From positions 1 through 25,337 of IMG/VR virus record IMGVR_UViG_3300045999_013115: DNA of 25,337 bases; one strand, written 5' to 3'. The position numbers and the translations under genes were made by a program. Within the stretch, counting starts at the first letter, position 1, and each line of letters opens with the position of its first letter. The stretch comes from a virus. Below the pieces are notes generated by a model that saw nothing but the letters and a program-made list of their open reading frames with translations, did not search any database and was not told the DNA's origin. Shown piece by piece: positions 35-25,337 of this stretch.

Positions 35-754
35 TTAGAATTGTCTCCACAGTGAGGGGTCTAACCTACTATACTCACACTTCAAATAATCTGTTCTCAA
101 AGTTAGAGTTATATCTCCACATAAAGAAATTCTATCTTTTTTCCTTTCGTGCATTTGTACTGTTGAATGCATCATATTACTAGGAAATAAAACAACAGTT
201 CCCTCTACTGGACTCACATAATAATTATTGCAATTATACTTATTATATTTTTTTATTAAATTATACTTCCCACTAATTGTGGTTTGAAACATAAAGTCGG
301 AAACCTCATTATTATTATTTTGCTGATGCAAGCACAATTTATCTGAAGTCTCATCTGAGTTTAGGTAATAACAAAAAGATATATCACTGCAATTATGAAT
401 ATGTGTTTTTATATTAGGTAAATCGTCTTTATGAATATTGACCCAAGATTTTGTAATATGAACATTTAATAATGTATCATCAACATCAAGAATTTTTAAA
501 TATTGACGAACATTATTTGAAAGACACTCGAAAAAAATTTTATATTTTTCTTCGTGGTGTAAAAAATATCTTCCAGAATTTTCTGGAGATTGTAATTCTT
601 CTCTTGGCAAATCCTCAGCATAATGCCAATACTCACAAAGTTCTTGTTGATATTTTTCTTTGAATTCTTTGTGGCAAGGTATTTCTCCCCTATAAATTAT
701 TGTTGGGAAAATTTCATAAATCTGATGTTTTAGGTTCTCCTTTGTGTACTGCAT
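35..754 (-). CDS. 2OG-Fe(II) oxygenase-like protein
   Basis: Likely a 2-oxoglutarate/Fe(II)-dependent dioxygenase of the small phage type (2OG-FeII_Oxy_5-like). The opening FPTIIYRGEIP matches the usual start of this family, and the double-stranded beta-helix ligands are visible: H118 and H120 in THIHN, H196 in MMHSTVQ, and R208 in DRISLCGDI for 2OG binding. The open frame extends to a GTG at 766, but I chose the ATG at 754, which follows an AGGTGG ribosome site by about 7 nt. Either start overlaps the 3' end of the fibre gene by 40-50 nt, so the two are translationally linked. The substrate is unknown; a place at the end of the fibre operon suggests hydroxylation of a virion or host protein, which is inference. 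The family call is fairly secure. Confidence 0.75.
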   Translation of the reverse strand: MQYTKENLKHQIYEIFPTIIYRGEIPCHKEFKEKYQQELCEYWHYAEDLPREELQSPENSGRYFLHHEEKYKIFFECLSNNVRQYLKILDVDDTLLNVHITKSWVNIHKDDLPNIKTHIHNCSDISFCYYLNSDETSDKLCLHQQNNNNEVSDFMFQTTISGKYNLIKKYNKYNCNNYYVSPVEGTVVLFPSNMMHSTVQMHERKKDRISLCGDITLTLRTDYLKCEYSRLDPSLWRQF

Positions 755-1622
755 AATCCCAACCACCTAACGCATATTCACTATTATCGCCCGGATAATC
801 ATACGGTGTCAATCCCCTATATTCTGTTTGTAGTTTATCGTGAGTGACCCTTTCTGCGAAGACAGTGTAATGGCAATGTATTTTAGTTCCAGAGTTATTT
901 TTTACTTTGATTCTTGTTCCCCATTCTATATTTTCTTCTACATATAATTCTTGATATTGACCAATTGGAGTTAAATTTACTGTAATCGATTCCGGATAAA
1001 CCAGTTTTCTCCAGTATTCTGGAAGTTCAATAATATCAGAACCATTTAAAGTTCCTCTAATGTATGCACCAACTTCTGGTCCTTCTAAACAAATATATCT
1101 CAAACGATGTTCTTTTTTTGTTGGATGTGGAATATCAAATCCCTTTCCTGCAAGTGCTCGAATACTTTCAAGCTGTCCAGTCAACCAACCGCAATTAATT
1201 ATACCAGAGACAGTCAAAGCACCATTAACTATCGCATTAGAATTTCTTACTGTTTGTCCATTTCCAAAATCTTGAGAGTTTTTTAAATCAATTCCTTGTT
1301 TTATTTCCAAGGAATTCATAGTGACAAGTGCTCCAAAATTAGCAACGCCAGTAAAATTACTAATGGCAGGAACATTAAGATTGCCAATAATATTACTAAT
1401 TCCAGTCACTTCCAATGAAGCTGGAATAGAAGGACCCAATGGAGGTCCAATCATACAAGAAGCACGAGCAACTCCTGCCTGCGGAGTTGCTCCAACAAAT
1501 ACAGGTCCATTTAATACAGTGGTTCCTGGCAGTAATTTTTGTCCAGCAGTAGCATATGATGTGTCTATCTGACCAACAATTAATTTGTCACCAATGGTAA
1601 AAATAGAAGCAGTAGCAGCCAT
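714..1622 (-). CDS. Tail fibre-like virion protein with C-terminal conserved beta domain
   Basis: A 302-residue putative structural protein. The first 160 residues are Gly/Ala/Thr/Asn-rich with short repeated beta-strand patterns (LEVTGISNIIGNLNV, then LTVSGIINC), as in trimeric phage fibres. From about residue 165 there is a conserved domain seen in many marine phage tail proteins, marked by KGFDIPHPTKKEHRLRY, CLEGPEVGAYIRG, ELPEYW and SITVNLTPIGQ. It lies 4 nt after the spike gene and overlaps the oxygenase gene, so it is in the late baseplate operon. A host-contact or short-fibre role is inferred from composition and place; no receptor specificity can be read. It has no T4 gp12 or gp37 signature that I recognise. 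Confidence 0.65.
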   Translation of the reverse strand: MAATASIFTIGDKLIVGQIDTSYATAGQKLLPGTTVLNGPVFVGATPQAGVARASCMIGPPLGPSIPASLEVTGISNIIGNLNVPAISNFTGVANFGALVTMNSLEIKQGIDLKNSQDFGNGQTVRNSNAIVNGALTVSGIINCGWLTGQLESIRALAGKGFDIPHPTKKEHRLRYICLEGPEVGAYIRGTLNGSDIIELPEYWRKLVYPESITVNLTPIGQYQELYVEENIEWGTRIKVKNNSGTKIHCHYTVFAERVTHDKLQTEYRGLTPYDYPGDNSEYALGGWDYAVHKGEPKTSDL

Positions 1623-1626
1623 AAGT

Positions 1627-2205
1627 TTATGGTAAGTAAAGTTTTAAATATTTTTCAAATTTCCCCAAAATACTTAATAGTGCTCCAATAAAAGATCCCT
1701 TTTTGGAATCAGTAATTGTCCCCATTGACGCCTGAACACCACCAACTACTTCTGAAAATTCTCCCATCATAGATGCTTGAGAGTTAGCGGCAATATCAAC
1801 ATTTGTTCCAACAACTTTTGTAGATGGAGCATCTGTTTGAATTATTTTATTAGATTTTAATGTAATTTCACCACTACCATCTTCTGCAACAATTCTTATA
1901 TTTTTTGCAATTAATGTAATTTGACCACCAGGAGCACGAATTTCTATGTCTCCATTTTTTGCATATATGACTTTTGCTGGTTCTTTATCGGTACATTTTG
2001 CTCCGACAACTTCTAATGAAGTTCTTGGAGTTGTTTCTATTTTATCCCCATCATCGCACAAAAATATAGACTGAACATCATTTGTTGGTCCGCCATTAGT
2101 TGCAACCCCCCATTCTACGGTCTTTCCAAAAGTTTTGGATTCAACTCCACCATAAACTTTATAATTTTTATGAACTTCTAAATCCCTTCTTTGTTGTTCG
2201 CTCAT
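1627..2205 (-). CDS. Baseplate central spike beta-helix protein (gp5 C-terminal-like)
   Basis: A 192-residue protein whose middle (about 80-150) is a run of short alternating polar/hydrophobic strands such as NGDIEIRAPGGQITLIAKN, GEITLKSNK and VVGTNVDIAANSQ. This resembles the triple-stranded beta-helix of the T4 gp5 C-terminal needle and the VgrG/gpV spike. The C-terminus (SFIGALLSILGKFEKYLKLYLP region) is hydrophobic and amphipathic. The start ATG overlaps the stop of the gp5-like gene (ATGA), consistent with a 1:1 partner. I infer that it supplies the membrane-piercing needle that in T4 is part of gp5 itself. A separate small structural protein is the alternative. Confidence 0.6.
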   Translation of the reverse strand: MSEQQRRDLEVHKNYKVYGGVESKTFGKTVEWGVATNGGPTNDVQSIFLCDDGDKIETTPRTSLEVVGAKCTDKEPAKVIYAKNGDIEIRAPGGQITLIAKNIRIVAEDGSGEITLKSNKIIQTDAPSTKVVGTNVDIAANSQASMMGEFSEVVGGVQASMGTITDSKKGSFIGALLSILGKFEKYLKLYLP

Positions 2206-4985
2206 ATGCAGTCAATTACACTTAGGTTGCCACTTCTGTTAATAATTCTTGGAGATGTCTTATATTTTCTTTTCAATTCTGTCAGAGGGAAAACAGCAGC
2301 GCCTTCTCCCGTCAATGTATTTATAGATAAAATGGGATTGCGTGAAAAACTGTTATTGACAGTGAATGGATACCTAGGATCTGGTTCGGCTCCAATTATT
2401 GAACCCCTATCGGTAATTATTGGAATAAAGGTAGATATTCCACCAACAACAATTCTATCCCCAGAAGTATATCCAATTCCTGGAGATGATACTATAATAT
2501 CAGTGACAATTACTTCTATTTCGTCTGATATTAGTCCAGGATCTCCTATATTAATAATAGTAGAACCAACTCCAATGTTAATGTCAGTTCCAATTCCTGG
2601 TGGAATTACATCATAAATTATTCCCTGGATGGATGGGATATTAGTATCAAGTCCCACATTAATTCCCTGTATCCCAATAGAAGTTGCACCAATTCCAGTA
2701 ATTCCTTGAGAACCAACAATATTGCCAATTCCTTGAATTCCTTGAATTCCCATATCTCCTGCTATTCCTTGGATTCCTTGCAATCTTATTGAATCTCCTA
2801 TGGTTTCTTGTAGACCTTGAATTCCTTGAGTTGGAATTATTGCAGGCACAGGAGTTCCTGGAGGAGATTCTGGAAGAGTTGTTGGAATAATAGTAGTTGG
2901 TAAACTGGTATCATTTACCATCACAATTGTTCTTGCGACATAATTTGAATTACTATCGTATAAATTAAATTCTACAATGTCAATTCCTTCTGGAGAATCA
3001 TCGTTAAATGGACGTAATTGTAAATTAAATCTTCCTTCAGAATTTAAAGTTATTTGTCCCGAAAGATCTACGCCATCACGTTCAGATTCTTCCAGTCCTA
3101 AAATTTCATATCTCACTTTATATGAATTTTGATCTTGTAAATTATACCCCTGAACAGTGAATGTTACAATTTCTCCTTCTCTTATTGAGTATCTATCCGC
3201 ATAAACAACATAAAATGGAACAAGAGCAATTGAACTATAATCATCTTGTGCATATCCAGATCCTGGTGCTATCACTAGAATTGCTTGCACAGATTCTTCA
3301 ACAACCACAGCTTGCAGTCTTGCCCCCTTTCCGCAATTTGATTTATCCTTTATTCTAACACTAGGGGTACTTTTAAATCCATATCCTCCATCTAAAACAG
3401 ATACAGCAATTATTTCACCACCAGAAGATACAATGGGAATAGCAGAAACTCCCATTCCTCCACCACCAATTACAGAAAGTGTTGGGGGACGACATGTACG
3501 TGCGCGGACACCTAAAGGTGGATCACCATTAACTACCTCTTGTGAGCAAGACGGAAAATAACCATCACCAAAACCATATACAGATAAGTATGAAACTGCT
3601 TCGTCTACTCCACCATTAAACGTTTTTAGGACATTCATATTGTCCAAAACTCTCGACCAACTTTCCCCATTCGATTCTGAAGGTCCAAAATTCATAGACC
3701 ACTCAGATGGTGTCTCGCATTTTAGCGCATCGCAACCAATAAAACTAATAATTTTGTTTGCAATTGAAGATGCCTTTGATAAAACATCGGATATTTTATC
3801 AAGACCACCAGTTAACCATTCAATTCCAGAAAATATTGGAGCGAGAAGATCATCAAGTAATTCTGTGACCTTATTTAAAAGTGCTCCAATCCATTCTTCG
3901 GCAGCACATAAAGGTACGCTAACTGCTCTACCAATTAACCCCAAGAGCATATCTTCAATAAAATCAGACAATTCATCCAATAATTTTTCAAATAAACAAA
4001 AAATTAAATTTAAAATATTTTTAGTTGCTTCACCAACTGTAGGCACTTGAGGTTCTGGTAAAATTAAAGCAATAAATTCTCTAAACAATTTGGAGACCAA
4101 ACCCATTATAGTTGATCTCATTATGTTTAACATGCCTTTCAATAAACCAGCTATTTTAGAAGCAGCTGACTTAATCTGATTCCCAATATCAACTACAGTA
4201 TTTAAAACTGGATCAATATAAGTGTTTCTAAACTTTTGAAGTCCATTAACAAAAGCAACAAAATCTTGAAGAACCTGTGTTATTTTTCCAATTGAATTAT
4301 TGGAGCATCCATTTTCTCGTTGTATTGTAATGGATAAACTTTCTTTAAGAGCAGCATTTAACGCAGAATCTTCATCAAATATTTGATCGGCAGAAGGATC
4401 ACTTGGAGGTAAATCCTGACTAATTGGTGATGGTCCATCATCAGAAGGTTGCACACCAACAATTGCCGGTGGAGAAGAAGGACGACTTGCTTCTCCTTGA
4501 GTTCCTTTATTCGTTCCTCTTCTTTGAGTTTCTTTTATAGCCATATTACCTTGATGTCCGGTAAATGGTCTAAATTGAGAACTTTTTTCTTGATTTATGA
4601 GTTCTGGCGTGATTAAACTTTGTGTACTTTTATTTCTAAAAATTAATCCAACAACAACTGGTTGCTGTGCGTCATCACCATCTAAGAAAAATCCAAAGGC
4701 AGTTTCTCCACCAACTAAATTGTGGCTTTTTCCTAATCCACCCTGAGAGGTTCCATCAACTGGATCCACCATCACATGTGCCCAAGGTAAATCCTGGTCT
4801 GGTAAAATGTCACCATCAAAGGTGTGATAACCAATAATTCTAACTTTACATCTATAAGCCCACCCTTCCGAATCTATTTCGGATCTTTCATCTCTCCAAA
4901 CGGATGGGGGTGCAATTTGCCCAATCCACCATATAAATCCATCTTTTCCTATAAAATTTGATTTTAATAAAGATTCTTCTATCAT
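2202..4985 (-). CDS. gp5-like baseplate hub protein: OB-fold, no lysozyme domain, collagen-like segment
   Basis: A 927-residue virion protein. Residues 1-125 look like the OB-fold of T4 gp5 (GWAYRCKVRIIGYHTFDGDI, then DLPWAHVMVDPVDGTSQGG, GETAFGFFLDGDDAQQPVVVG). Residues 205-420 are largely amphipathic helix with few charged breaks. Residues 500-585 hold two Gly-Tyr-Gly beta motifs (DGGYGFKSTPSVRI and PGSGYAQDD). Residues 595-695 look like a Calx-beta or Ig-like strand domain. Residues 720-776 carry collagen-like G-x-y triplets rich in GIQ. No T4-type lysozyme domain is visible; cell-wall hydrolases sit in two upstream genes instead. It overlaps cp12 upstream and the spike gene downstream by 1-4 nt. 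The hub role is fairly sure; the added domains are not assigned. Confidence 0.72.
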   Translation of the reverse strand: MIEESLLKSNFIGKDGFIWWIGQIAPPSVWRDERSEIDSEGWAYRCKVRIIGYHTFDGDILPDQDLPWAHVMVDPVDGTSQGGLGKSHNLVGGETAFGFFLDGDDAQQPVVVGLIFRNKSTQSLITPELINQEKSSQFRPFTGHQGNMAIKETQRRGTNKGTQGEASRPSSPPAIVGVQPSDDGPSPISQDLPPSDPSADQIFDEDSALNAALKESLSITIQRENGCSNNSIGKITQVLQDFVAFVNGLQKFRNTYIDPVLNTVVDIGNQIKSAASKIAGLLKGMLNIMRSTIMGLVSKLFREFIALILPEPQVPTVGEATKNILNLIFCLFEKLLDELSDFIEDMLLGLIGRAVSVPLCAAEEWIGALLNKVTELLDDLLAPIFSGIEWLTGGLDKISDVLSKASSIANKIISFIGCDALKCETPSEWSMNFGPSESNGESWSRVLDNMNVLKTFNGGVDEAVSYLSVYGFGDGYFPSCSQEVVNGDPPLGVRARTCRPPTLSVIGGGGMGVSAIPIVSSGGEIIAVSVLDGGYGFKSTPSVRIKDKSNCGKGARLQAVVVEESVQAILVIAPGSGYAQDDYSSIALVPFYVVYADRYSIREGEIVTFTVQGYNLQDQNSYKVRYEILGLEESERDGVDLSGQITLNSEGRFNLQLRPFNDDSPEGIDIVEFNLYDSNSNYVARTIVMVNDTSLPTTIIPTTLPESPPGTPVPAIIPTQGIQGLQETIGDSIRLQGIQGIAGDMGIQGIQGIGNIVGSQGITGIGATSIGIQGINVGLDTNIPSIQGIIYDVIPPGIGTDINIGVGSTIINIGDPGLISDEIEVIVTDIIVSSPGIGYTSGDRIVVGGISTFIPIITDRGSIIGAEPDPRYPFTVNNSFSRNPILSINTLTGEGAAVFPLTELKRKYKTSPRIINRSGNLSVIDCI
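2318..2325 (-). promoter_or_regulatory. Late-promoter-like TATAAATA inside the gp5-like gene
   Basis: On the minus strand this reads TATAAATA, identical to the T4 late promoter box. It lies within the coding sequence, 113 nt before the start of the spike gene, and could give extra late transcription of spike, fibre and oxygenase genes. In AT-rich DNA a chance match is possible. Confidence 0.35.
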
Positions 4986-5206
4986 CAGTCTTCGTACACC
5001 CTACACTCTAATGCATCTGGATTTTTATCGCAAAATAATTCCAATGAAGTTGGATCATGCTCATCATTTGGATGATTTCTTTTATATGATTCTAATGATT
5101 CTAGTTCATCTTCAGTATGTCTACGTGCTTGAGCGGAAATAAGTGGATCATCTAAAATCATTTTATCTTTTTCAATATGCTCATCTATTGTCTTTTTATT
5201 TTCCAT
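4985..5206 (-). CDS. cp12: CP12, Calvin-cycle inhibitor
   Basis: CP12 is a small disordered protein that binds phosphoribulokinase and glyceraldehyde-3-phosphate dehydrogenase and switches off the Calvin cycle; it is a known cyanophage auxiliary metabolic gene. This 73-residue protein has the diagnostic C-terminus, SLELFCDKNPDALECRVYED, with C59 and C68 forming the CX8C pair that makes the regulatory disulfide. An acidic helix (DELESLESYKRNHPNDEHD) precedes it. The N-terminal Cys pair of plant CP12 is absent, as in picocyanobacterial forms. GGAG lies 6 nt before the ATG. It sits between the gp27-like and gp5-like hub genes, 17 nt after the former and coupled by TGATG to the latter, so it should be made with late virion proteins. 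The call is strong. Confidence 0.9.
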   Translation of the reverse strand: MENKKTIDEHIEKDKMILDDPLISAQARRHTEDELESLESYKRNHPNDEHDPTSLELFCDKNPDALECRVYED

Positions 5207-5223
5207 TTTTTGCTCCAGTTTAA

Positions 5224-6489
5224 TTAATTTCCAGAAAGACCATAACTATCCCTCAAGAGTCTTAGACTAGTTATACAAGTTCCACCCTCAAAATGATGTC
5301 TCAATTCTTTAATTAAATAATATCCACTTTGTTGTTCATCAGATTCCTTATTGTCGTTTCTAGATACTCTAGGAAATTCTGCTTCTAAGATGTCTCCAAC
5401 CTTTAGGGTTATATTGCACGGTACAACGATATTTAGAGATTGAGAAAACAATATATTATATCTTGAATATGATTTTGCCATATCAGCAACATCTCTACCA
5501 GAATCTGCGTTAATTTCATTACTTGGGGTAACTCCACTATCAGAGACTCTAAACATTATTCTAGATATTGCTTTTTCTAGACCTTCTAAAATAGGTATTT
5601 CCGAGTCTGCTCCTAATTTGTTATTTACCTGCTCTTTCAAAAAATAATCAAATTCTTGAAGAGTATGGTTATAGAAATCTGCAAAATAAGTTCTATTTGC
5701 ATAAGTACCGACTCGTAAAGATTTCACTAAATCAATATTTTTATCAAATGTATAATTTATTATTTTGAATTCATTTAGTACTCTTGCTTCCTCTTGTCCG
5801 TCCCCATAAGTATATTTTTTTATTTGTTGAGATGTAGAAGATGATGTTAAACTATCTATACTCTTAAAATTAAATCCTTCTATATTCTCATAAAAAAGAT
5901 AACCACCAACTCCTCTTGCTTCTTTTCCTGAAGTTCCTCCAGTAATAGCAGGCATAGCTTTTGGGCATAACCATGTGAGAATATGGAATGGTTTTTTATA
6001 ATTTCCTATGAACGTATATGAATTTCCAGTTTGTTCAATATTTTCTTCAGAATAATTTTCTGTATTTAAAACATTTTTTAATATATCCTCAACTGTGTTT
6101 TTTATATTTCCATTATATCTTTTTTGACATCTACTAGTTTCATTAGATAAAAGTTCTCTTGGCACTAAATGTAAAGTAATCATTTCACTAGTGCTATCTT
6201 GAACTATTGAACTAACTTTATTGACATATAAAGTTCTTTCTTCTTCAAAATCAAATTCACCAAAAAGAGTACTAAAACCAAAAGCAACTCTTTCCCCACC
6301 ACGAATGGGAAGATTGTGCAAAATGGAACTACTATTCATCAAAGTTGCAATTACTGTTATACATGGAGATAAAATATCTTCATAATAATCAACAGATAAA
6401 ATAGAGTTAGTTAGATCAACTGTATTTTCTTGATCCAATGATTCTATTAAAAAATATTTTGGTTTATATGAATTAAGAGATATTGACAT
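5224..6489 (-). CDS. Baseplate hub protein (gp27-like)
   Basis: A 421-residue protein in the position of a contractile-tail hub subunit. The N-terminus (LTNSILSVDYYEDILSPC, then IRGGERVAFGFSTLFGEF) resembles the start of gp27/gpD-type hub proteins, which form the trimeric ring between tail tube and spike. The C-terminal part has strand-rich text (NIVVPCNITLKVGDILEAEF, SGYYLIKELRHHFEGG) typical of the tube-like domain of this fold. It shares one base with the M23 gene stop/start and is followed by cp12 and then the gp5-like partner. Gene order and features support gp27; direct identity with T4 gp27 is low by eye. Confidence 0.62.
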   Translation of the reverse strand: MSISLNSYKPKYFLIESLDQENTVDLTNSILSVDYYEDILSPCITVIATLMNSSSILHNLPIRGGERVAFGFSTLFGEFDFEEERTLYVNKVSSIVQDSTSEMITLHLVPRELLSNETSRCQKRYNGNIKNTVEDILKNVLNTENYSEENIEQTGNSYTFIGNYKKPFHILTWLCPKAMPAITGGTSGKEARGVGGYLFYENIEGFNFKSIDSLTSSSTSQQIKKYTYGDGQEEARVLNEFKIINYTFDKNIDLVKSLRVGTYANRTYFADFYNHTLQEFDYFLKEQVNNKLGADSEIPILEGLEKAISRIMFRVSDSGVTPSNEINADSGRDVADMAKSYSRYNILFSQSLNIVVPCNITLKVGDILEAEFPRVSRNDNKESDEQQSGYYLIKELRHHFEGGTCITSLRLLRDSYGLSGN

Positions 6490-8228
6490 TAGGATGCTGA
6501 AAGATTTGTAAGTAGCATAGTCTTAATTAATTCAGATGTTATTTCCCCAGGTGATGGTGGCATAATAGCAATAGTAGATTCCTTTGAACCTCCCCCTCCA
6601 GAAATAACTACTGGTCTTTGTTGAGAGTTAGATCCAACAGATATTGGGATAATAGTAGTTATTGATTGTGCTTGATTATATGTAGGATAGTATTGGATTG
6701 TATTTACTTTTTGTGGAATATAATTTTGATTTGATTGTGGAACAATTAACTGAGATGTATCACTTTTGATGGTATTAGTGGAAATATTTTCCTGAGAAGA
6801 ATTTGGAGAAATATTTTGAGATATCATTTGATTTTTATTTTGTGGAGTATTTCCCTTTATTTGACTTTGGTTATTTTCTTGTTGTTGGTAATTTGTAGAT
6901 ACATCTCCGAGTTTCTGTGCTACATCATTAGGTTTTCTTGGTTTGACTGAGACTTTGCCACCATATCTGAAATATTTTGAAGCAGCGGACCTACCATCAA
7001 CTGGTTTTGTTCCTGGTCCACCAGGTCTATATTCAAAGTGAATGTGTGGTCCAGTAGATCTTCCAGTGCTTCCTTGATTGCCTATAACTGTCCCCGCTTC
7101 AATTCGTTGACCCTTTTTGACATTGACTTTACTCAAGTGTCCATAAAATGTTTCTGCTCCATCCGTATGATGGACAGCAACCCAATTTCCATACCCACCT
7201 TCATAACCACTATCAACAACTCCCGGTTGCAATACAGTAACTGGTGAATTTTGATTAGGATGAGCAAAATCAACTCCACTATGGAGTTGATACCTACCAG
7301 TTTTTGGATTAACTCTCATTCCAAATCCAGAAGTAAAATGAGGTGCTGGTGAATCTCCACCTTCTGCAGTGTAAATTTCACTTACTTGGTCAACAGATGG
7401 CTCTTCCTCAATGTATTCTGTTTTCACTTCTCCACTAACATCTTCCATTGGTGCTTCACCTTGTTCTGACATTGAACCAAAAAGACCTTGAGATACCCCT
7501 GCTTCAAATTTTTCCACTGCAGAACCAAACCTATTAATTACTTCACTAAATGATGAACCACCAGATACTAAAGATTTTTGCTTTATTTCTTGTTCCTTTA
7601 GTTTTTGTTTTTGCTTTCCTGATATTCCTTCACCCAATTCCATGGCTCTATCTGCTACATATCCACCAAGGAATCCTCCAGCCATACTACCAAGGACAAA
7701 TCCAAGTCCAGGGACTGGTATCAATGCCTGTCCAATTGCTCCACCAAGCAAACTACCAGCAAGAGAACCACCAGCACCTGCTGCTGCTTTTCCTACAGAT
7801 TCACCTTCTTGAAGACCAGTGGCAAAATCCAATCCAGCAAAGAGAGCGTTAGCAACACCAAGTGCTCTAACTCCTCCCAATTTCAACTTTGGACCCTTTA
7901 CAACTGGTTTTGGTGGTTTAACCTCCTTTGGTTGCCTTGATGGGAAAAAATTCCCTAGAAATCCAGCAACATCTAATGCACCACCTGCTAAAGAAGTAAG
8001 TAAATTAGTTGGTTTTCCAAAAGTAGATGCAATGTTTAATTTTGCAAGTGCTTTTATTTTTTTATCAGATGGAAGTTTTTCTTTTTCTAACTGTAATTGT
8101 TGAATCTCTAAAAACTGTAAAAATCCAGAAAAATCACTTTGCAATTTGTTTGCCATCTTTGCAGATGCACCCAAATTACCTATACGATTAAATGCAGTAA
8201 TTAGTGGAGAAGATACTTGTTTTGCCAT
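6489..8228 (-). CDS. Virion protein with M23 (LytM-type) zinc endopeptidase domain
   Basis: A 579-residue protein. Residues about 295-410 form an M23 peptidase that would cut peptidoglycan cross-bridges: SGFGMRVNPKTGRYQLHSGVD supplies the zinc ligands H316 and D320, FYGHLS gives H364, and STGPHIHFEY gives H395 and the ligand H397, so all active-site residues are present. Residues 147-192 are a Gly/Ala-rich hydrophobic stretch like a glycine zipper, which may insert into membrane. The C-terminal 170 residues are Asn/Gln/Ser-rich and probably disordered. It lies between the tail-lysozyme gene and the gp27-like gene with start/stop overlaps, so it is very likely in the baseplate or tail. I infer a role in local wall digestion at DNA entry. 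Confidence 0.8.
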   Translation of the reverse strand: MAKQVSSPLITAFNRIGNLGASAKMANKLQSDFSGFLQFLEIQQLQLEKEKLPSDKKIKALAKLNIASTFGKPTNLLTSLAGGALDVAGFLGNFFPSRQPKEVKPPKPVVKGPKLKLGGVRALGVANALFAGLDFATGLQEGESVGKAAAGAGGSLAGSLLGGAIGQALIPVPGLGFVLGSMAGGFLGGYVADRAMELGEGISGKQKQKLKEQEIKQKSLVSGGSSFSEVINRFGSAVEKFEAGVSQGLFGSMSEQGEAPMEDVSGEVKTEYIEEEPSVDQVSEIYTAEGGDSPAPHFTSGFGMRVNPKTGRYQLHSGVDFAHPNQNSPVTVLQPGVVDSGYEGGYGNWVAVHHTDGAETFYGHLSKVNVKKGQRIEAGTVIGNQGSTGRSTGPHIHFEYRPGGPGTKPVDGRSAASKYFRYGGKVSVKPRKPNDVAQKLGDVSTNYQQQENNQSQIKGNTPQNKNQMISQNISPNSSQENISTNTIKSDTSQLIVPQSNQNYIPQKVNTIQYYPTYNQAQSITTIIPISVGSNSQQRPVVISGGGGSKESTIAIMPPSPGEITSELIKTMLLTNLSAS

Positions 8229-10501
8229 TATCCGTCAACTATATTGTAAACCATTTTTGAGTAAAGTAGTAAAAAGTTATCGGGATTACCTGAAGGAAGA
8301 AATGGAACTGAAGGTCCTTGTGTTTTTTTGGATGGAGATGGAGATAGAGAAGAAGACGAAGCAGATTGTTGTTGCCCTCCAGTCATATCTATGGGCATGA
8401 TATTAACTTGAGGTTCTGCTTGAGATGGTGGTGGCTGTGATATTGCTTGAGCGGTAGTTGATTTAGCAGAAGGAACAAGTTTTGATGGTTCAACAATTGT
8501 AGTTGTTGAAGAAATCGAATCTTTCCCCTGTGCTCCAGTCTTTCCATCAATTCCAGGCTTTCCTGGTTGTACTTTACCCCCATATTTGGATAGTACTTGT
8601 TGTCCAAATCTAATTCTATTGGAATCCATAGCCTCTGCTTCGCCAGGTCTAAGATATTGTTTTCTCACCAGTACTGCAGCTTCCTCTACGCTTTTTGTTC
8701 CCTGCAATCTGCCTTTTGATAGTCCACCAGACCCTGTTTTTAATTCTTGTTCAACAAATTGAAGTTGTGCTTCAAGAGTATTTGGATCCAATCCTTTTGA
8801 TTTTGCGAATGCAACCATCTTTGGATATCTATCTTTAGGATCCCACTGTGCTATACCTTTATGTCCTATAGAATTAGCCACAGTTGGATTTAATGCACGG
8901 TTTTCTTGCATTAGATTTCCAACGATTCCCGCTGCTTGTTCTTTGGTATATCCCTGACTAATAAAATAATTGAAAGCTTTTTCTTCATTTCCAGATCCAG
9001 AAAAATCTGCAGGTCCTCCTGGTGTTCCTCCACCAGAAGTACCTCCACCGGGAGAACCAGAAGAAGGCACCCCACCGCCGCCACCGCCCGATGGTTTTGC
9101 CATTGCCTGTGTTTTTTTATTTCCAGTTGCTCCTTTTATTAAATTATCAACAGCATTTGTAAATCTATCAACAATTATATTGAACTGGTCAACAACATTT
9201 CCAGGAATCATTGGTTGTGCCGCTACTGGTTGAACCTGCCCAGTATCTGCAAGAGCATTAACTGTTGCTGCTCCTGCAGCACCAAGTCCAAGTGCTCCTG
9301 CGCCCATAGCAAGCATTTTACCCTTTCCCATTCCACGGGCACTTCTGGGCAAAGATTGTTTCATCTTTGGTCCAGGTATATCCACATCAATATCAAATCC
9401 ACCTCCACCAGAAGGAGATGCCTTCGGCAAATTTGATAATTGTTTTACTATTTTGACAATAACTTGACGTAATATTTTTGCAGTAGAAAAACTCTCAGTA
9501 AAAGATTCTTTTATTGCATTTAAATTTTCTTTAAGTTTTCCTATATTTTTTCTATTGCCAAAAAACTGAGCAAAACCAAATGCAGTATTATATGCATCAA
9601 TAAACTTTTGAAGTATATTAGTCGGTTTTGCAGTATCAACCTCCTCAATTTTTTTACGATAACTTGTGGTAAAACTTGTAATAGTTTTATTTAAAGTCTC
9701 ATTTACATTTTCTCTAATATTTTTAACTGTCTCCCTAAGTTGGGTAGTCATTCCACCAAAACCTTGTTGAGGCGGAGTGGTTATTTGTACTTGCGATACT
9801 TCGTTTCTAACTTGACTTATAGTTGTTTCTAACTGATCAATTTTTTTAACTAAGTTTGATTGTAAAATGGTAGTATTGATATAATCAATAATTTCTACTT
9901 TGTTATTTACGATATCTCTTTTATTTTCATTTATTAGTTGTATTAATTCTTCTTTTTTATCCTCAGTAATTAATTTAATTATTTGTTCTTTATTTACTAA
10001 ATTATTTTTAGAAATATAATTAATTAATTCCTGCTTATTTGAGTTTATTTTTGTCTCAATTACTTTAATTTCATTTAATAAGTTTTGTTTATTTTCAACA
10101 TTTTTTACATTAATATAATTAATTAACTCTACTTTATTATCTGATAATTCACTAATACTATTAATTTTATTCTCAATATTTTTTATAACTTGTAAAAATT
10201 CAGTTTTAAAGTTTTCTATTTTCCCATCAACTGTTTTGTTTAAAACTTGGGAGTTTGTATTTATTGAATTACTTACATTATTGACAATATTGGAAGAAAT
10301 ACTGCTAATAATTGAATTGATGTCGGGTATAGATGGTCTGACCCCAGCATTTCTTTGAAATCCAACTATTTTATTAGAAGCCGAAGCAACAACAGAATCT
10401 CCTAAAATATTTCCACCAGAAATAAATCTTTGAGCTTCCTTTGAAGTAGCTCTTTTGTTTCTTGTTATTTTTTCTGGTGTTAAAACAGAACTAAGTGCCA
10501 T
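8228..10501 (-). CDS. Tail protein with coiled coil and phage tail-lysozyme domain; possible tape measure
   Basis: A 757-residue protein. Residues 60-300 are a long coiled coil with a repeated unit of about 25-30 residues (KVELINYIN, KQELINYIS, EELIQLINEN, KVEIIDYIN). Residues 393-418 are hydrophobic Gly/Ala-rich. Residues 465-500 are a Gly/Pro linker. Residues 505-642 match the phage tail lysozyme family: FNYFISQGYTKEQAAGIVGN, then LMQENRALNP with the likely catalytic Glu533, GIAQWDPKDR and KQYLRPGEAEA. A five-triplet collagen-like patch follows (647-661), then a Pro/Ser tail. Its place after gp51 and before gp27, where T4 has 27-29, plus coil and hydrophobic segment, suggests a tape-measure/hub role like gp29 with added muramidase. 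The hydrolase domain is secure; the tape-measure role is inference. Confidence 0.75.
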   Translation of the reverse strand: MALSSVLTPEKITRNKRATSKEAQRFISGGNILGDSVVASASNKIVGFQRNAGVRPSIPDINSIISSISSNIVNNVSNSINTNSQVLNKTVDGKIENFKTEFLQVIKNIENKINSISELSDNKVELINYINVKNVENKQNLLNEIKVIETKINSNKQELINYISKNNLVNKEQIIKLITEDKKEELIQLINENKRDIVNNKVEIIDYINTTILQSNLVKKIDQLETTISQVRNEVSQVQITTPPQQGFGGMTTQLRETVKNIRENVNETLNKTITSFTTSYRKKIEEVDTAKPTNILQKFIDAYNTAFGFAQFFGNRKNIGKLKENLNAIKESFTESFSTAKILRQVIVKIVKQLSNLPKASPSGGGGFDIDVDIPGPKMKQSLPRSARGMGKGKMLAMGAGALGLGAAGAATVNALADTGQVQPVAAQPMIPGNVVDQFNIIVDRFTNAVDNLIKGATGNKKTQAMAKPSGGGGGGVPSSGSPGGGTSGGGTPGGPADFSGSGNEEKAFNYFISQGYTKEQAAGIVGNLMQENRALNPTVANSIGHKGIAQWDPKDRYPKMVAFAKSKGLDPNTLEAQLQFVEQELKTGSGGLSKGRLQGTKSVEEAAVLVRKQYLRPGEAEAMDSNRIRFGQQVLSKYGGKVQPGKPGIDGKTGAQGKDSISSTTTIVEPSKLVPSAKSTTAQAISQPPPSQAEPQVNIMPIDMTGGQQQSASSSSLSPSPSKKTQGPSVPFLPSGNPDNFLLLYSKMVYNIVDG

Positions 10502-10680
10502 TAGTGATTCTTTTGCTGTTGTTGTTTTAACTTCTCATCTTCAATATGTTGTTGTAAAAGTGCCAAGTAAATATCTCTTTCCCATGGCATCATATTTTCA
10601 ATTTCTGTCAATGAATATTTATGGAATTGCATTAAGGCAAAATTAATTTTGAAATATGACTCAAGTTCCATATGAGCCAT
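10501..10680 (-). CDS. 51: Baseplate hub assembly protein (gp51-like)
   Basis: A 59-residue helical protein matching in size, place and look the cyanophage gp51, which in T4 acts as an assembly catalyst of the baseplate hub. The text MELESYFKINFALMQFHKY then PWERDIYLALLQQHIEDE is mostly amphipathic helix, with a Gln/Lys tail. The frame opens at a TTG at 10686, but the ATG at 10680, 2 nt after the gp26 stop, is the natural start. The stop overlaps the next start (TAATG). The assignment leans on context because such small proteins carry little signature. Confidence 0.6.
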   Translation of the reverse strand: MAHMELESYFKINFALMQFHKYSLTEIENMMPWERDIYLALLQQHIEDEKLKQQQQKNH

Positions 10681-10682
10681 AA

Positions 10683-11411
10683 TCAACCGAAAAAACTTGT
10701 AAGTCCCTCAAGCTCTACAGTATTTTCCACTTTAGTTTTTGGATTTACGACAGTAATGGTATGTGAAAGTTTTGGCATAGTTTCAAAAAAGTTTTCAATC
10801 AACTTGAATTGATTTGAATTCATTCCTTCTATAAATTCTACCAACTCCTTTTTAGTGCAATCAGACGCTGCCCAACTTTCATCTTCTGTAAAAATTACAT
10901 CCATACAAGATGTTATAATATCAAATGATTTATCTATGTTTGAAGAACTTTGCTCAGAAGTAAAATCAAAATTATTTTTTATAAATTGATCCAGAGATGG
11001 ATACTTCATCCTCAAAACTAACTTATCATCTAATTTGATATCTCTATTATGTGATTCATTCTTTTTAACATTAATTTCATCAACATATACAGTCACTGGA
11101 ACTTGTGTTTCTCCATCATCAGAACAGGTCACAATTAAATCTATCGACTCACCTACGGACTTTCCTCTAACATTTAAAAAGATATATTCTATATCAAATG
11201 TTGGAAGATCTTCTACATTAATACCTCTAGTCATAATGCAATCTTTTAGAACTTGTTTAATTGCATTTGTTATATTTTTAGTATTTTGTGATTCTAAAGC
11301 AAGTATTAAAATTTTTTCTTCTTTTACTAGGAAGGGACGATATTTAATTTTTTTTCCACTAGATGGCAACTCAAGATCATAAGTTGGTGTAGAAATTTTA
11401 GGTAATGGCAT
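10683..11411 (-). CDS. 26: Baseplate hub subunit gp26
   Basis: A 242-residue protein of the T4 gp26 type, a baseplate hub component. The region KIKYRPFLVKEEKILILALE is the recognisable family block; a second block (LRMKYPSLDQFIKNNF) follows about residue 130. T4 gp26 is 208 residues, so this is slightly longer. It is followed 2 nt later by gp51 and preceded by a CATAAATA late-promoter-like box that overlaps the stop of the gp54-like gene, so it can be transcribed both from its own promoter and from upstream. Confidence 0.78.
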   Translation of the reverse strand: MPLPKISTPTYDLELPSSGKKIKYRPFLVKEEKILILALESQNTKNITNAIKQVLKDCIMTRGINVEDLPTFDIEYIFLNVRGKSVGESIDLIVTCSDDGETQVPVTVYVDEINVKKNESHNRDIKLDDKLVLRMKYPSLDQFIKNNFDFTSEQSSSNIDKSFDIITSCMDVIFTEDESWAASDCTKKELVEFIEGMNSNQFKLIENFFETMPKLSHTITVVNPKTKVENTVELEGLTSFFG

Positions 11412-11433: not shown

Positions 11434-11441
11434 TATTTATG
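11434..11441 (-). promoter_or_regulatory. Late-promoter-like CATAAATA before gp26
   Basis: The minus strand reads CATAAATA 22 nt before the gp26 ATG, overlapping the stop codon of the gp54-like gene. It matches the T4 late box (TATAAATA) at seven of eight positions and lies at a suitable distance from the gene, in one of the few non-coding gaps of this block. Confidence 0.55.
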
Positions 11442-14723: not shown

Positions 14724-15554
14724 ATGAGCTATTTTAACGAATTACCAAACATAGAATATATTTCTCCATTTAGTGATAAAACATCAAATAAAGATTATGT
14801 GCTGTCTAAAAATATATTTTCTAGAGCAAAAGTAAAAAATAATATTTTAAACAATATAACAGCATTTACTCCATATTATATAAAAGATGGGGAAAGACCA
14901 GATACAATAGCGAATAAAGCATATAATAATTCAGAATTAGATTGGGTTGTTTTAACCACAAACAATATAACAAATATAAATGAACAATGGCCTCTAGACA
15001 ATAATAGTTTATACAAATATTTACTGGACAAATATGGATCCGAAGAGGCATTAGGTGAAGTTCACCACTATGAAACAATAGAATTAAAGGATCAATATAA
15101 TAGAGTAATCTTAGATGGAGGATTGCAAGTTGATAGTGGATTCACCAGAACATTTTTAACAGAAGAAGGTCAAGGAACATATTCTCTTCCCCAATATCAA
15201 GATTCAAATTTAAACAAAGAAGTAAAAATAAATTTGAATCAAGTTTTAGAAATCCCCGGAAGAAATTTTATAGGAAAAATAAAAATAAATGATATAAAAA
15301 TAAAATCATCTTCTTTGTTTATTCAGGGAAGAGAAAATTCATATGAAATAAACATAACTAACACATTATCTCCCTGGCCTGCTAGTTGGGGAGGTTCATT
15401 AAATGTAAAGACAAGAAGCGGAACAGTAAACGTAGAAATAGGAGATGGAATAGGAGATACATATATAAATATTCCAGATTATCTATATAAAATAGTTAAA
15501 AAAGAAGTAAACGGGGAAATAATTTCAGAATTAGTATTTACTCCACAAGCATAA
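14724..15554 (+). CDS. 53: Baseplate wedge subunit gp53
   Basis: A 276-residue protein of the gp53 family, which joins wedges to the hub in T4. Typical text is MSYFNELPNIEYISPF, then FTPYYIKDGERPDTIANKAY (a LysM-like block), SELDWVVLTTNNITNINEQW and LDKYGSEEALGEVHHYET. T4 gp53 is 196 residues; the C-terminal 90 residues here (SLFIQGRENSYEINITNTLS to the end) are an added strand-rich piece. It follows gp48 by 1 nt. Confidence 0.85.
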   Translation: MSYFNELPNIEYISPFSDKTSNKDYVLSKNIFSRAKVKNNILNNITAFTPYYIKDGERPDTIANKAYNNSELDWVVLTTNNITNINEQWPLDNNSLYKYLLDKYGSEEALGEVHHYETIELKDQYNRVILDGGLQVDSGFTRTFLTEEGQGTYSLPQYQDSNLNKEVKINLNQVLEIPGRNFIGKIKINDIKIKSSSLFIQGRENSYEINITNTLSPWPASWGGSLNVKTRSGTVNVEIGDGIGDTYINIPDYLYKIVKKEVNGEIISELVFTPQA

Positions 15555-15556
15555 AA

Positions 15557-15847
15557 ATGTCTACCCCAATACCTGGACTAACCATACAAATATCAACAAC
15601 ACAAGAATTAATTTTTTTTGATATTGACACGAGAGAAGTCAAAAAAATATCTTCAATAAAAGAAGTGTCTAATTACGAATATGAAGTCGCTGAAAACGAG
15701 AAAAAAAGAAAAATCCTTTTATTGAGAAAAGAATATTTACCTGCATTTATTGAGGATTTTAGAAAAGCAATGAGATATGATAAAAATTCTCAGTATATAA
15801 ACAATAAAAATAAAAGAACAAGTAATCCCAATATTTCAAATATATAA
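15557..15847 (+). CDS. Small conserved cyanophage protein, function unknown
   Basis: A 96-residue protein ending the plus-strand late block. The N-terminus is strand-like (GLTIQISTTQELIFFDIDTR), the middle is charged (ENEKKRKILLLRKEYLPAFI) and the tail is Asn/Lys-rich. No motif allows a function. It starts 2 nt after gp53, so a minor virion or assembly role is possible. Its stop lies directly before the hairpin terminator. Confidence 0.65.
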   Translation: MSTPIPGLTIQISTTQELIFFDIDTREVKKISSIKEVSNYEYEVAENEKKRKILLLRKEYLPAFIEDFRKAMRYDKNSQYINNKNKRTSNPNISNI

Positions 15848-23415: not shown

Positions 23416-23787
23416 CTAAGAAGCATTGTTTTTTCTTGGTTTATATCTATACAATTCTTTCTTTTGCGAAAATTGTGTCCAATCAATAATAGCATTCTTT
23501 TTGTCAATAGTAAAGAACTCTTGCCTAGAGAACCAATCTTCCCAATCTTGATGGGATTTTGACTTATTACATTGTTCGCAGCAACAAATTACGTTGCCTA
23601 TAAAATCACTTCCACCTCTTGATTGTGGTATAACGTGATCTATTGTTAAATTGTCCGCAGACTCACAATACGCACATTTATTTTTCCATTTTTCTTTTAT
23701 CTTTTTTTTCCACATTCTCCTTGCTTCACCTGGACTTGTCGTGTATAGATTAAACAAGTATTCTTGGGGAGAGTGAAAAAGTTCCAT
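23416..23787 (-). CDS. HNH endonuclease
   Basis: A 123-residue HNH nuclease with a zinc-bound core: KCAYC (C38, C41), LTIDHVIPQSRGGSDFIGN (D50, H51 and N65), and CCCEQCNKSKSHQDW with C70, C73 and N74. The D-H-x-x-P-x-S-x-G-G and N-x-x-x-C-C/x-x-C-N-x-x-K pattern is complete. The C-terminus is basic (LYRYKPRKNN). It could be a free-standing homing-type nuclease or one used in DNA processing; position among small accessory genes favours the former. A zinc-ribbon peptide gene lies 3 nt upstream. Confidence 0.9.
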   Translation of the reverse strand: MELFHSPQEYLFNLYTTSPGEARRMWKKKIKEKWKNKCAYCESADNLTIDHVIPQSRGGSDFIGNVICCCEQCNKSKSHQDWEDWFSRQEFFTIDKKNAIIDWTQFSQKKELYRYKPRKNNAS

Positions 23788-24466: not shown

Positions 24467-24635
24467 CAATATCTCCATACGAGTCTTCCAAATAAGGTCC
24501 ATGTTCTCGTTTGGAATCTTCTCTGACATAATTGATTTCAGATAAACTTTCAGTTAACCAAAGTGATAGCTTCGTTACTATGTAGATAACCGCAAGGGGA
24601 AGAAAACATAAGGTTAAAATCAATGCATGTTTCAT
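24444..24635 (-). CDS. Small membrane protein
   Basis: A 63-residue protein with one membrane helix at the N-terminus (ALILTLCFLPLAVIYIVTKL) and an acidic cytoplasmic tail (YLEDSYGDIDEKEEDY). The ATG overlaps the gnd stop (ATGA), so it is translated from the gnd message. The pattern helix plus acidic tail is the same as in the 22682-22918 gene. Function unknown. Confidence 0.65.
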   Translation of the reverse strand: MKHALILTLCFLPLAVIYIVTKLSLWLTESLSEINYVREDSKREHGPYLEDSYGDIDEKEEDY

Positions 24636-25337
24636 CTTACGTGATGTCCCCCAAACATATATCGCATACCATTCAAAACCTTGGATGCGAAAGTGCCCAA
24701 GTTGCGTGAATTAAATCTTTCAAAAAGGGCAGTAGTAATGACAGGAGCGGGTACACCAAGGTCCACAGCGGCAGAAACAGTCCAACGACCCTCACCACTG
24801 TCGGAAACCCCACCAGAGAACTGTTTAAGTTGACCATCATTCCGTAGAACATCAGCGGTAAGATCAAGAAGCCAACTACCAACAACACTACCACGACGCC
24901 ATAACTCAGCAACCTCAGCAACGTCAATATCATAGCAATAAGATTCCGGGTCTGCCATTGGAGCAACCTCAGCATCTCCTTCCCTGACATACTTTGCACC
25001 TGCGTTTGCATTTTTAATAATATTAAATCCTTCGGCATATGCCTGCATTATACCATACTCTATGCCATTGTGAACCATCTTCACAAAATGCCCTGCACCT
25101 GGACCACCACAGTGCAACCAACCAAACTCTGCGGAGGTTAGAGGTGTGTCAAACTGAGTCCTCGGGGCAGCGTTGATTCCTGGAGAGAGGGCATCAAAAA
25201 TGCTCGCACAAGTGGCGACCGCAGTATTTCCGCCACCAACCATAAGACAGTATCCACGATCCAAACCATAAACACCGCCGCTAGTGCCACAATCAATATA
25301 TTGGATACCAAGTTTTGCCAACCGTTCGGCTCTTTTC
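24632..25337 (-). CDS. gnd: 6-phosphogluconate dehydrogenase (5' end outside window)
   Basis: Gnd oxidises and decarboxylates 6-phosphogluconate to ribulose-5-phosphate and makes NADPH. The visible 234 residues are the C-terminal part of the protein; the frame continues upstream through the window edge (KRAERLAKLGIQYIDCG), so the gene is cut, not truncated. Signature blocks are CGTSGGVYGLDRGYCLMVGG, the active-site GPGAGHFVKMVHNGIEYGIM with its lysine, and the end YMFGGHHVR, typical of the short YqeC/GndA-type enzymes. Base composition is about 50 percent GC by eye over sampled lines, well above neighbours. It is a known cyanophage auxiliary gene. It is coupled to a small membrane-protein gene downstream. 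Confidence 0.92.
   Translation of the reverse strand, partial: KRAERLAKLGIQYIDCGTSGGVYGLDRGYCLMVGGGNTAVATCASIFDALSPGINAAPRTQFDTPLTSAEFGWLHCGGPGAGHFVKMVHNGIEYGIMQAYAEGFNIIKNANAGAKYVREGDAEVAPMADPESYCYDIDVAEVAELWRRGSVVGSWLLDLTADVLRNDGQLKQFSGGVSDSGEGRWTVSAAVDLGVPAPVITTALFERFNSRNLGTFASKVLNGMRYMFGGHHVR

Follow-up and report, generated by a model that had tools for sequence, protein, structure and literature searches.

The cp12 gene in the window (the whole stretch of DNA analysed here, a 25,337-base IMG/VR virus record) is a real and correctly recognised CP12 gene, and its family, its slot among the baseplate hub genes, the packing of the surrounding genes and the positions of the promoter motifs can be read directly from the DNA. 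We consider it fairly likely that this gene is expressed late, on the hub transcript, with translation of gp5 coupled to its own, and that its product inhibits host Gap2 in the cytoplasm and with it the Calvin cycle. Among phage genes that switch carbon fixation off, cp12 is the standard case. The timing of cp12 found in the literature is that of one phage type, in which cp12 is a middle gene; the promoter-motif evidence on its timing presented below is new.

The hub genes of the window

The annotated relatives nearest to the window by megablast are cyanophages (S-SRM01, P-SSM2, S-PM2 and others), and the window phage is most likely a T4-like cyanophage of the Kyanoviridae type. At the window end, a 6-phosphogluconate dehydrogenase-like gene (24632-25336, minus strand, phrog_1319 'dehydrogenase') runs off the sequence; the window phage therefore also carries a pentose-phosphate gene. 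The features around cp12 are the following:

11434..11440, minus: ATAAATA, T4-like late motif, -29 relative to gp26; no other in the hub run is at a canonical distance
10683..11411, minus: gp26-like baseplate hub gene, head of the hub run (phrog_150, E 1e-77)
10501..10686, minus: gp51-like hub assembly catalyst, 61 aa (phrog_634, E 2e-27)
8228..10501, minus: tail-lysozyme gene of the hub run, 757 aa (Pfam Phage_lysozyme2, 2e-29)
6489..8228, minus: M23 peptidase gene of the hub run, 579 aa (Pfam M23, 3e-26)
5224..6489, minus: gp27-like baseplate hub/tail gene, 421 aa (phrog_350 'tail protein', E 3e-94)
5213..5216, minus: GGAG ribosome-binding site, 6 nt before the cp12 ATG (read from the sequence)
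4985..5206, minus: cp12, 73 aa, ATG to TGA (ORF list, Pfam CP12, PHROG 627)
5032-5030 to 5005-5003, minus: CX8C, from C59 to C68 (C59-DKNPDALE-C68)
4983..4987, minus: TGATG overlap of the cp12 stop and the gp5 start (read from the sequence)
2202..4985, minus: gp5-like hub and spike gene, 927 aa (phrog_1922, E 6e-123)
1627..2205, minus: gene after gp5, overlapping it by 4 nt (ORF, weak PHROG match)

Between gp26 and gp5, neighbouring genes abut or overlap throughout, with the sole exception of the 17 nt between the gp27-like gene and cp12. An earlier reading of the letters alone (the sequence-only reading) had placed cp12 between gp27-like and gp5-like genes, with its own GGAG site and a TGATG overlap with gp5, and all three statements hold: phrog_350 stands before the gene and phrog_1922, annotated as 'baseplate hub subunit and tail lysozyme', after it, GGAG is located at 5216-5213 and TGATG at 4987-4983. 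Since the cp12 stop and the gp5 start have one A in common, translation of the two genes is probably coupled. The gp5-like protein (2202-4985, minus strand) contains a collagen-like GIQGIQG repeat stretch at about residues 690-770. Elsewhere in the window, two consecutive plus-strand ORFs (14724-15554 and 15557-15847) both match the baseplate wedge family phrog_232, covering profile positions 2-154 and 142-214, as if a gp53-like gene had been split.

Identity of the CP12 protein

The strand of cp12, which had not been given before, is the minus strand (read 5206 to 4985), and the product is MENKKTIDEHIEKDKMILDDPLISAQARRHTEDELESLESYKRNHPNDEHDPTSLELFCDKNPDALECRVYED. Pfam CP12 matches its residues 8-72 with E 2.8e-13 and 50.9 bits, above the curated cut-off of 22.7 bits, PHROG 627 matches with E 5e-28, and a profile (A1) made from 20 phage homologues together with the window CP12 hits CP12 chains of solved structure, among them 6gfo at 5e-8. 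The sequence-only reading had called the CX8C tail unmistakable, a fair description for a protein of the CP12-C type, and had named a C-terminal match failing against CP12 profiles as grounds for giving up the assignment; all three profiles match. A chance match is ruled out by the profile matches together with the residue conservation.

Residues were compared across two sets, 111 CP12s from phages and 78 genomic ones of the picocyanobacterial type. CxxxPxxxxC, including the central proline, is kept in 189 of 189 proteins (111/111 phage, 78/78 genomic). The N-terminal cysteine pair is absent from the window CP12, which has no cysteine before C59, and likewise from the phage CP12s and the 78 genomic ones. 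The AWD_VEEL core is missing from the window protein, which carries ARRHTEDELESLESY at that place, and an AWD core occurs in none of the 111 phage and 78 genomic proteins. RRH is found in 110/111 phage CP12s, and most host proteins have KVRH there. Because CxxxPxxxxC is present in all and the AWD core and the N-terminal cysteine pair are absent, the window CP12 is by its residues of the CP12-C type, not of the classical plant type; the CP12-C type has been described for cyanophages, and binding and inhibition of GAPDH (and PRK) are known for members of the CP12 family (PMC3906501). The window CP12 would most probably act in the cytoplasm, as a GAPDH inhibitor of the ordinary kind.

Promoters in the hub run

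In the window, no late motif at canonical distance is located before cp12, gp5, the gp27-like gene, the M23 gene or the lysozyme gene. Other canonical late motifs lie before gp4 (-28), a regulator (-29) and an HNH gene (-27); the latter is an HNH endonuclease-like ORF (23416-23787, minus strand, assigned by sequence motif), and its ATAAATA at -27 is placed as before late genes. Internal TAAATA sites occur at chance density (44 found, 47 expected), and a CTAAATA at 5436-5430 inside gp27 is a candidate internal site of this chance-density kind. A late promoter of its own was rejected for the window cp12, since none is canonical and internal TAAATA sites do not exceed chance. A sigma-70 promoter of its own was likewise rejected: the 80 nt before cp12 contain no sigma-70 match of at least 9/12 (best 7/12), and going upstream on the minus strand, the scan meets its first candidate after about 600 nt, within gp27.

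Since the sole canonical motif is at gp26, the genes are packed and no sigma-70 match is near cp12, the window cp12 would most simply be read on the late hub transcript. The sequence-only reading had proposed that CP12 is made in step with late virion proteins, and had seen an internal early promoter as the observation that would contradict this. The 80 nt before the gene hold no such sigma-70 match, and the proposal is supported by the gp26 motif, the only canonical one of the run, and by the motifs that relatives often have before cp12.

The gp27-gp5 slot in other phages

We found cp12 in 372 phage records with tblastn. The comparison of gene order with other cyanophages that had been suggested earlier revealed the same slot in many of them: behind the gp27-like gene of viral contigs, 75 junctions were readable, with cp12 in 58 and gp5 in 17. 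The direct order gp27-like, cp12, gp5 is present in S-T4, DSL-LC02, DSL-LC03, S-WAM2, S-SSM7, S-CAM4, S-H9-1 and S-RSM4. Extra genes (cpeT, a 2OG oxygenase, tRNA or other genes) stand between cp12 and gp5 in S-SZBM1, S-RIM8, Syn9, Syn33, S-SM1, P-RSM3, ACG-2014d, P-SSM3 and S-RIM2. S-SRM01, P-HM1, P-HM2, S-TIM5, S-SKS1 and P-TIM68 have cp12 outside the hub slot. Counting IMG/VR cp12 loci with both neighbours visible, or with a flank long enough to rule the neighbours out, 49 of 71 are in the slot and 22 elsewhere. A slot unique to the window phage is ruled out by the 58/75 junctions and the many named isolates. In addition, the slot near gp5 is already known in general terms, since it has been reported that cp12 may be located near gp5 and an insertion hot-spot with tRNAs was named there (PMC3037559). 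The position is thus less odd than had been implied.

Without cp12, gp27 joins gp5 directly, often with a 4-nt overlap (the 17/75 junctions), and because of this cp12 probably arrived there by insertion between two genes, gp27 and gp5, that overlapped. Four isolates with cp12 elsewhere have readable gp27-gp5 junctions (S-SRM01, S-SKS1, P-HM1 and P-TIM68; P-HM2 was left out, having no usable start), and in these four gp27 abuts or overlaps gp5 and the late motif is absent. In a CP12 tree, whose columns are too few to count the entries into the slot and which has few well-supported branches, the slot labels cluster (19 changes, shuffled mean 44).

Phage CP12 might have taken on a new role in folding or assembling the gp27-gp5 hub, as it is a small acidic protein with inferred coupling to both hub genes. 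We regard this as highly improbable, given that gp27 joins gp5 directly in the 17 junctions and that CP12 encoded outside the slot keeps the same residues.

Carriage in virions

The sequence-only reading had also considered that CP12 is carried in virions and does its work on entry; it might then be packaged in a hub-bound form. The genomic position of cp12 would fit, and so would one 5.9-kb contig (L055, IMGVR_UViG_3300008113_004374), in which cp12 is in frame at 627-3392 with a gp5 that lacks its start and is truncated at the N-terminus. This cp12-gp5 junction was found once in the collection, and compared with contig L086 about 155 nt are missing there; the fusion is a deletion or an assembly error. 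It was rejected as evidence for carriage, coming from a single contig with a unique junction and a deleted gp5 start. No consistent fusion or targeting feature of phage CP12 was seen, and the CP12 sequence is not specialised in phages with the hub slot. The virion proteome of S-CREM2 names no CP12, its cp12 being divergent and located outside the hub slot, and according to the Table 3 coordinates the S-CREM2 gp27-gp5 pair overlaps without cp12 (PMC10665884). Carriage is therefore very improbable. Of the earlier interpretation, synthesis in step with late virion proteins has support from the sequence, carriage in virions is without support and the oddity of the position has become weaker.

Late-promoter motifs upstream of cp12 in relatives

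The published late motif of cyanophages is NATAAATA (PMC2984593), and we scored NTAAATA, the T4-like late-promoter motif. In S-SM1, scanned from -40 to -14, it precedes 10 of 36 genes on the late/structural list, to which cp12, cpeT and GC945 (cp12 and two neighbours) were assigned by position, versus a single one of the 27 genes classed as early, replication or metabolic; the late-list genes bearing it include gp26, gp5, gp25, gp9, gp8, gp19, gp20, a fibre gene and cp12. Upstream of cp12, NTAAATA was present in 56 of 90 dereplicated loci, with 1.06 expected from the local density, and its position showed a sharp peak at -28. Outside the hub slot it was present in 28 of 30 loci. Within the slot, cp12 has its own motif in 27/28 loci with a gap after gp27 of at least 18 nt and in 1/32 with a gap of at most 17 nt, a split that is partly geometric, because the -28 motif uses the gp27 stop codon at a gap of about 20 nt. 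Sigma-70-like boxes of 9/12 within 80 nt before cp12 were in mild excess (34 in 107 loci versus 21.6 in shuffles).

Among 24 isolates, NTAAATA was found upstream of cp12 in 18/24, talC in 10/21, psbA in 0/22 and nrdA in 0/23. This within-isolate control replaced a first one on oceanic contigs (psbA 0/55, talC 2/54), which was biased to P-HM2-like phages since the contigs had been fetched with P-HM2-type queries; with the replacement, talC rose from 2/54 to 10/21. The talC motif is located at about -30, often directly after a terminator-like hairpin (upstream regions L357-L366, from S-SM1, Syn9, Syn33, S-RIM8 and others). In S-SRM01 (MW015081.1, 207378-209780), the psbA matches are divided among four segments spread over 2.4 kb, a pattern expected of introns or inserts in a phage psbA gene. 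Taken from these motifs, cp12 is probably late in most relatives, with two architectures, an own late promoter or the hub operon.

It might also be that foreign genes are simply tolerated at the gp27-gp5 junction, a hot-spot of insertion, which gives cp12 a place without any timing advantage. The slot also takes cpeT, a 2OG oxygenase, tRNA-Val and other genes, and a hot-spot with tRNAs has been named near gp5 (PMC3037559). However, in the loci examined cp12 stands directly behind gp27 with the extras after it, and the 28/30 loci outside the slot carry a late-type motif, so that timing appears to be selected wherever cp12 sits. We consider the hot-spot explanation rather unlikely.

Conflicting evidence on timing

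In P-HM2, cp12 and other auxiliary metabolic genes (AMGs) are found only in the middle expression cluster, and genes common to P-HM2 and P-SSM2 keep their cluster in 95% (PMC5082946). The P-HM2 cp12 has ATAAATA at -31, overlapped by a host-like box, TTGACA-17-TAGGAT (10/12); being a middle gene despite this ATAAATA, it shows that the motif is no proof of late timing. Host-like promoters were reportedly assigned to middle genes in the Syn9 study (Doron 2016), which would explain the timing of the P-HM2 cp12. Host CO2 fixation stops at about 2 h with S-RSM4 versus about 4 h with S-PM2 (PMC10452541), a phage without cp12 (PMC3037559). The S-RSM4 cp12 is located in the hub slot and has its own CTAAATA; a stop of CO2 fixation at about 2 h comes early if the gene is purely late, and this is the main evidence against late expression. 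The zwf, gnd and talC genes of S-RSM4 could be an alternative cause.

These data would agree with cp12 being a middle gene, transcribed either through early read-through or from a host-like promoter concealed within gp27; that it stands among late genes would then be incidental. The P-HM1 and P-HM2 genes lie outside the hub slot, however, and have TTGACA-17-TAGGAT, whereas the window reaches 7/12 at best within 80 nt and has its nearest candidate some 600 nt upstream in gp27. A middle-gene cp12 in the window is thus unlikely, and we retain late expression from the hub transcript.

A possible mechanism and its meaning

According to the reading we prefer, a T4-like cyanophage acquired a CP12-C type gene between its gp27 and gp5. 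Having no promoter of its own detectable by our scans, the window cp12 would be read late, as part of a long transcript initiated at the gp55-type late promoter upstream of gp26. Its own GGAG site would serve its translation, and that of gp5 would be coupled to it through TGATG. CP12 would stay in the cytoplasm, where its C-terminal disulfide tail may bind host GAPDH (Gap2), and this binding would keep the Calvin cycle shut during late replication and virion assembly. We infer the timing, the translational coupling, the GAPDH binding and the benefit to the phage from sequence.

Quite possibly, though this is a tentative suggestion, T4-like cyanophages express their AMGs in two waves, psbA and nrdA as middle genes and cp12 (often with talC) late with the virion genes. 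If so, cp12 would be a late gene in most members of the family, owing either to a late promoter of its own or to the hub operon, and the statement that AMGs are middle genes would hold only for lineages such as P-HM2. If most relatives make CP12 late, the model in which CP12 makes NADPH available for producing nucleotides would have to be reconsidered, and phage lineages could differ in when CO2 fixation is shut down.

Comparison with known systems

Picocyanobacterial CP12-C proteins, for example that of Synechococcus WH7803 (L487), likewise have only the C-terminal cysteine pair and no AWD core; the host proteins read KAEGN..KVRH where phage CP12 has DPxxSPQxRRH. The cp12 of P-HM1 and P-HM2 encodes the same CP12-C type as the window's, but is located next to talC with a host-like promoter, middle expression having been measured for P-HM2 (PMC5082946), whereas the window gene is in the hub slot. 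As in the window, the cp12 genes of Syn9 (gp17), S-SM1 (SSM1_018, T4-GC 337) and S-RSM4 (SRSM4_226) have gp27 upstream and gp5 behind; unlike the window gene, all three have their own NTAAATA, which in Syn9 is CTAAATA at -33, and Syn9 and S-SM1 have cpeT and a tRNA between cp12 and gp5, which the window lacks. S-T4, DSL-LC02 and DSL-LC03 have the same tight gp27-cp12-gp5 order without an own motif, with a gap after gp27 of -1 to 2 nt compared to 17 nt in the window, and their CP12 proteins are 64-70% identical to that of the window.
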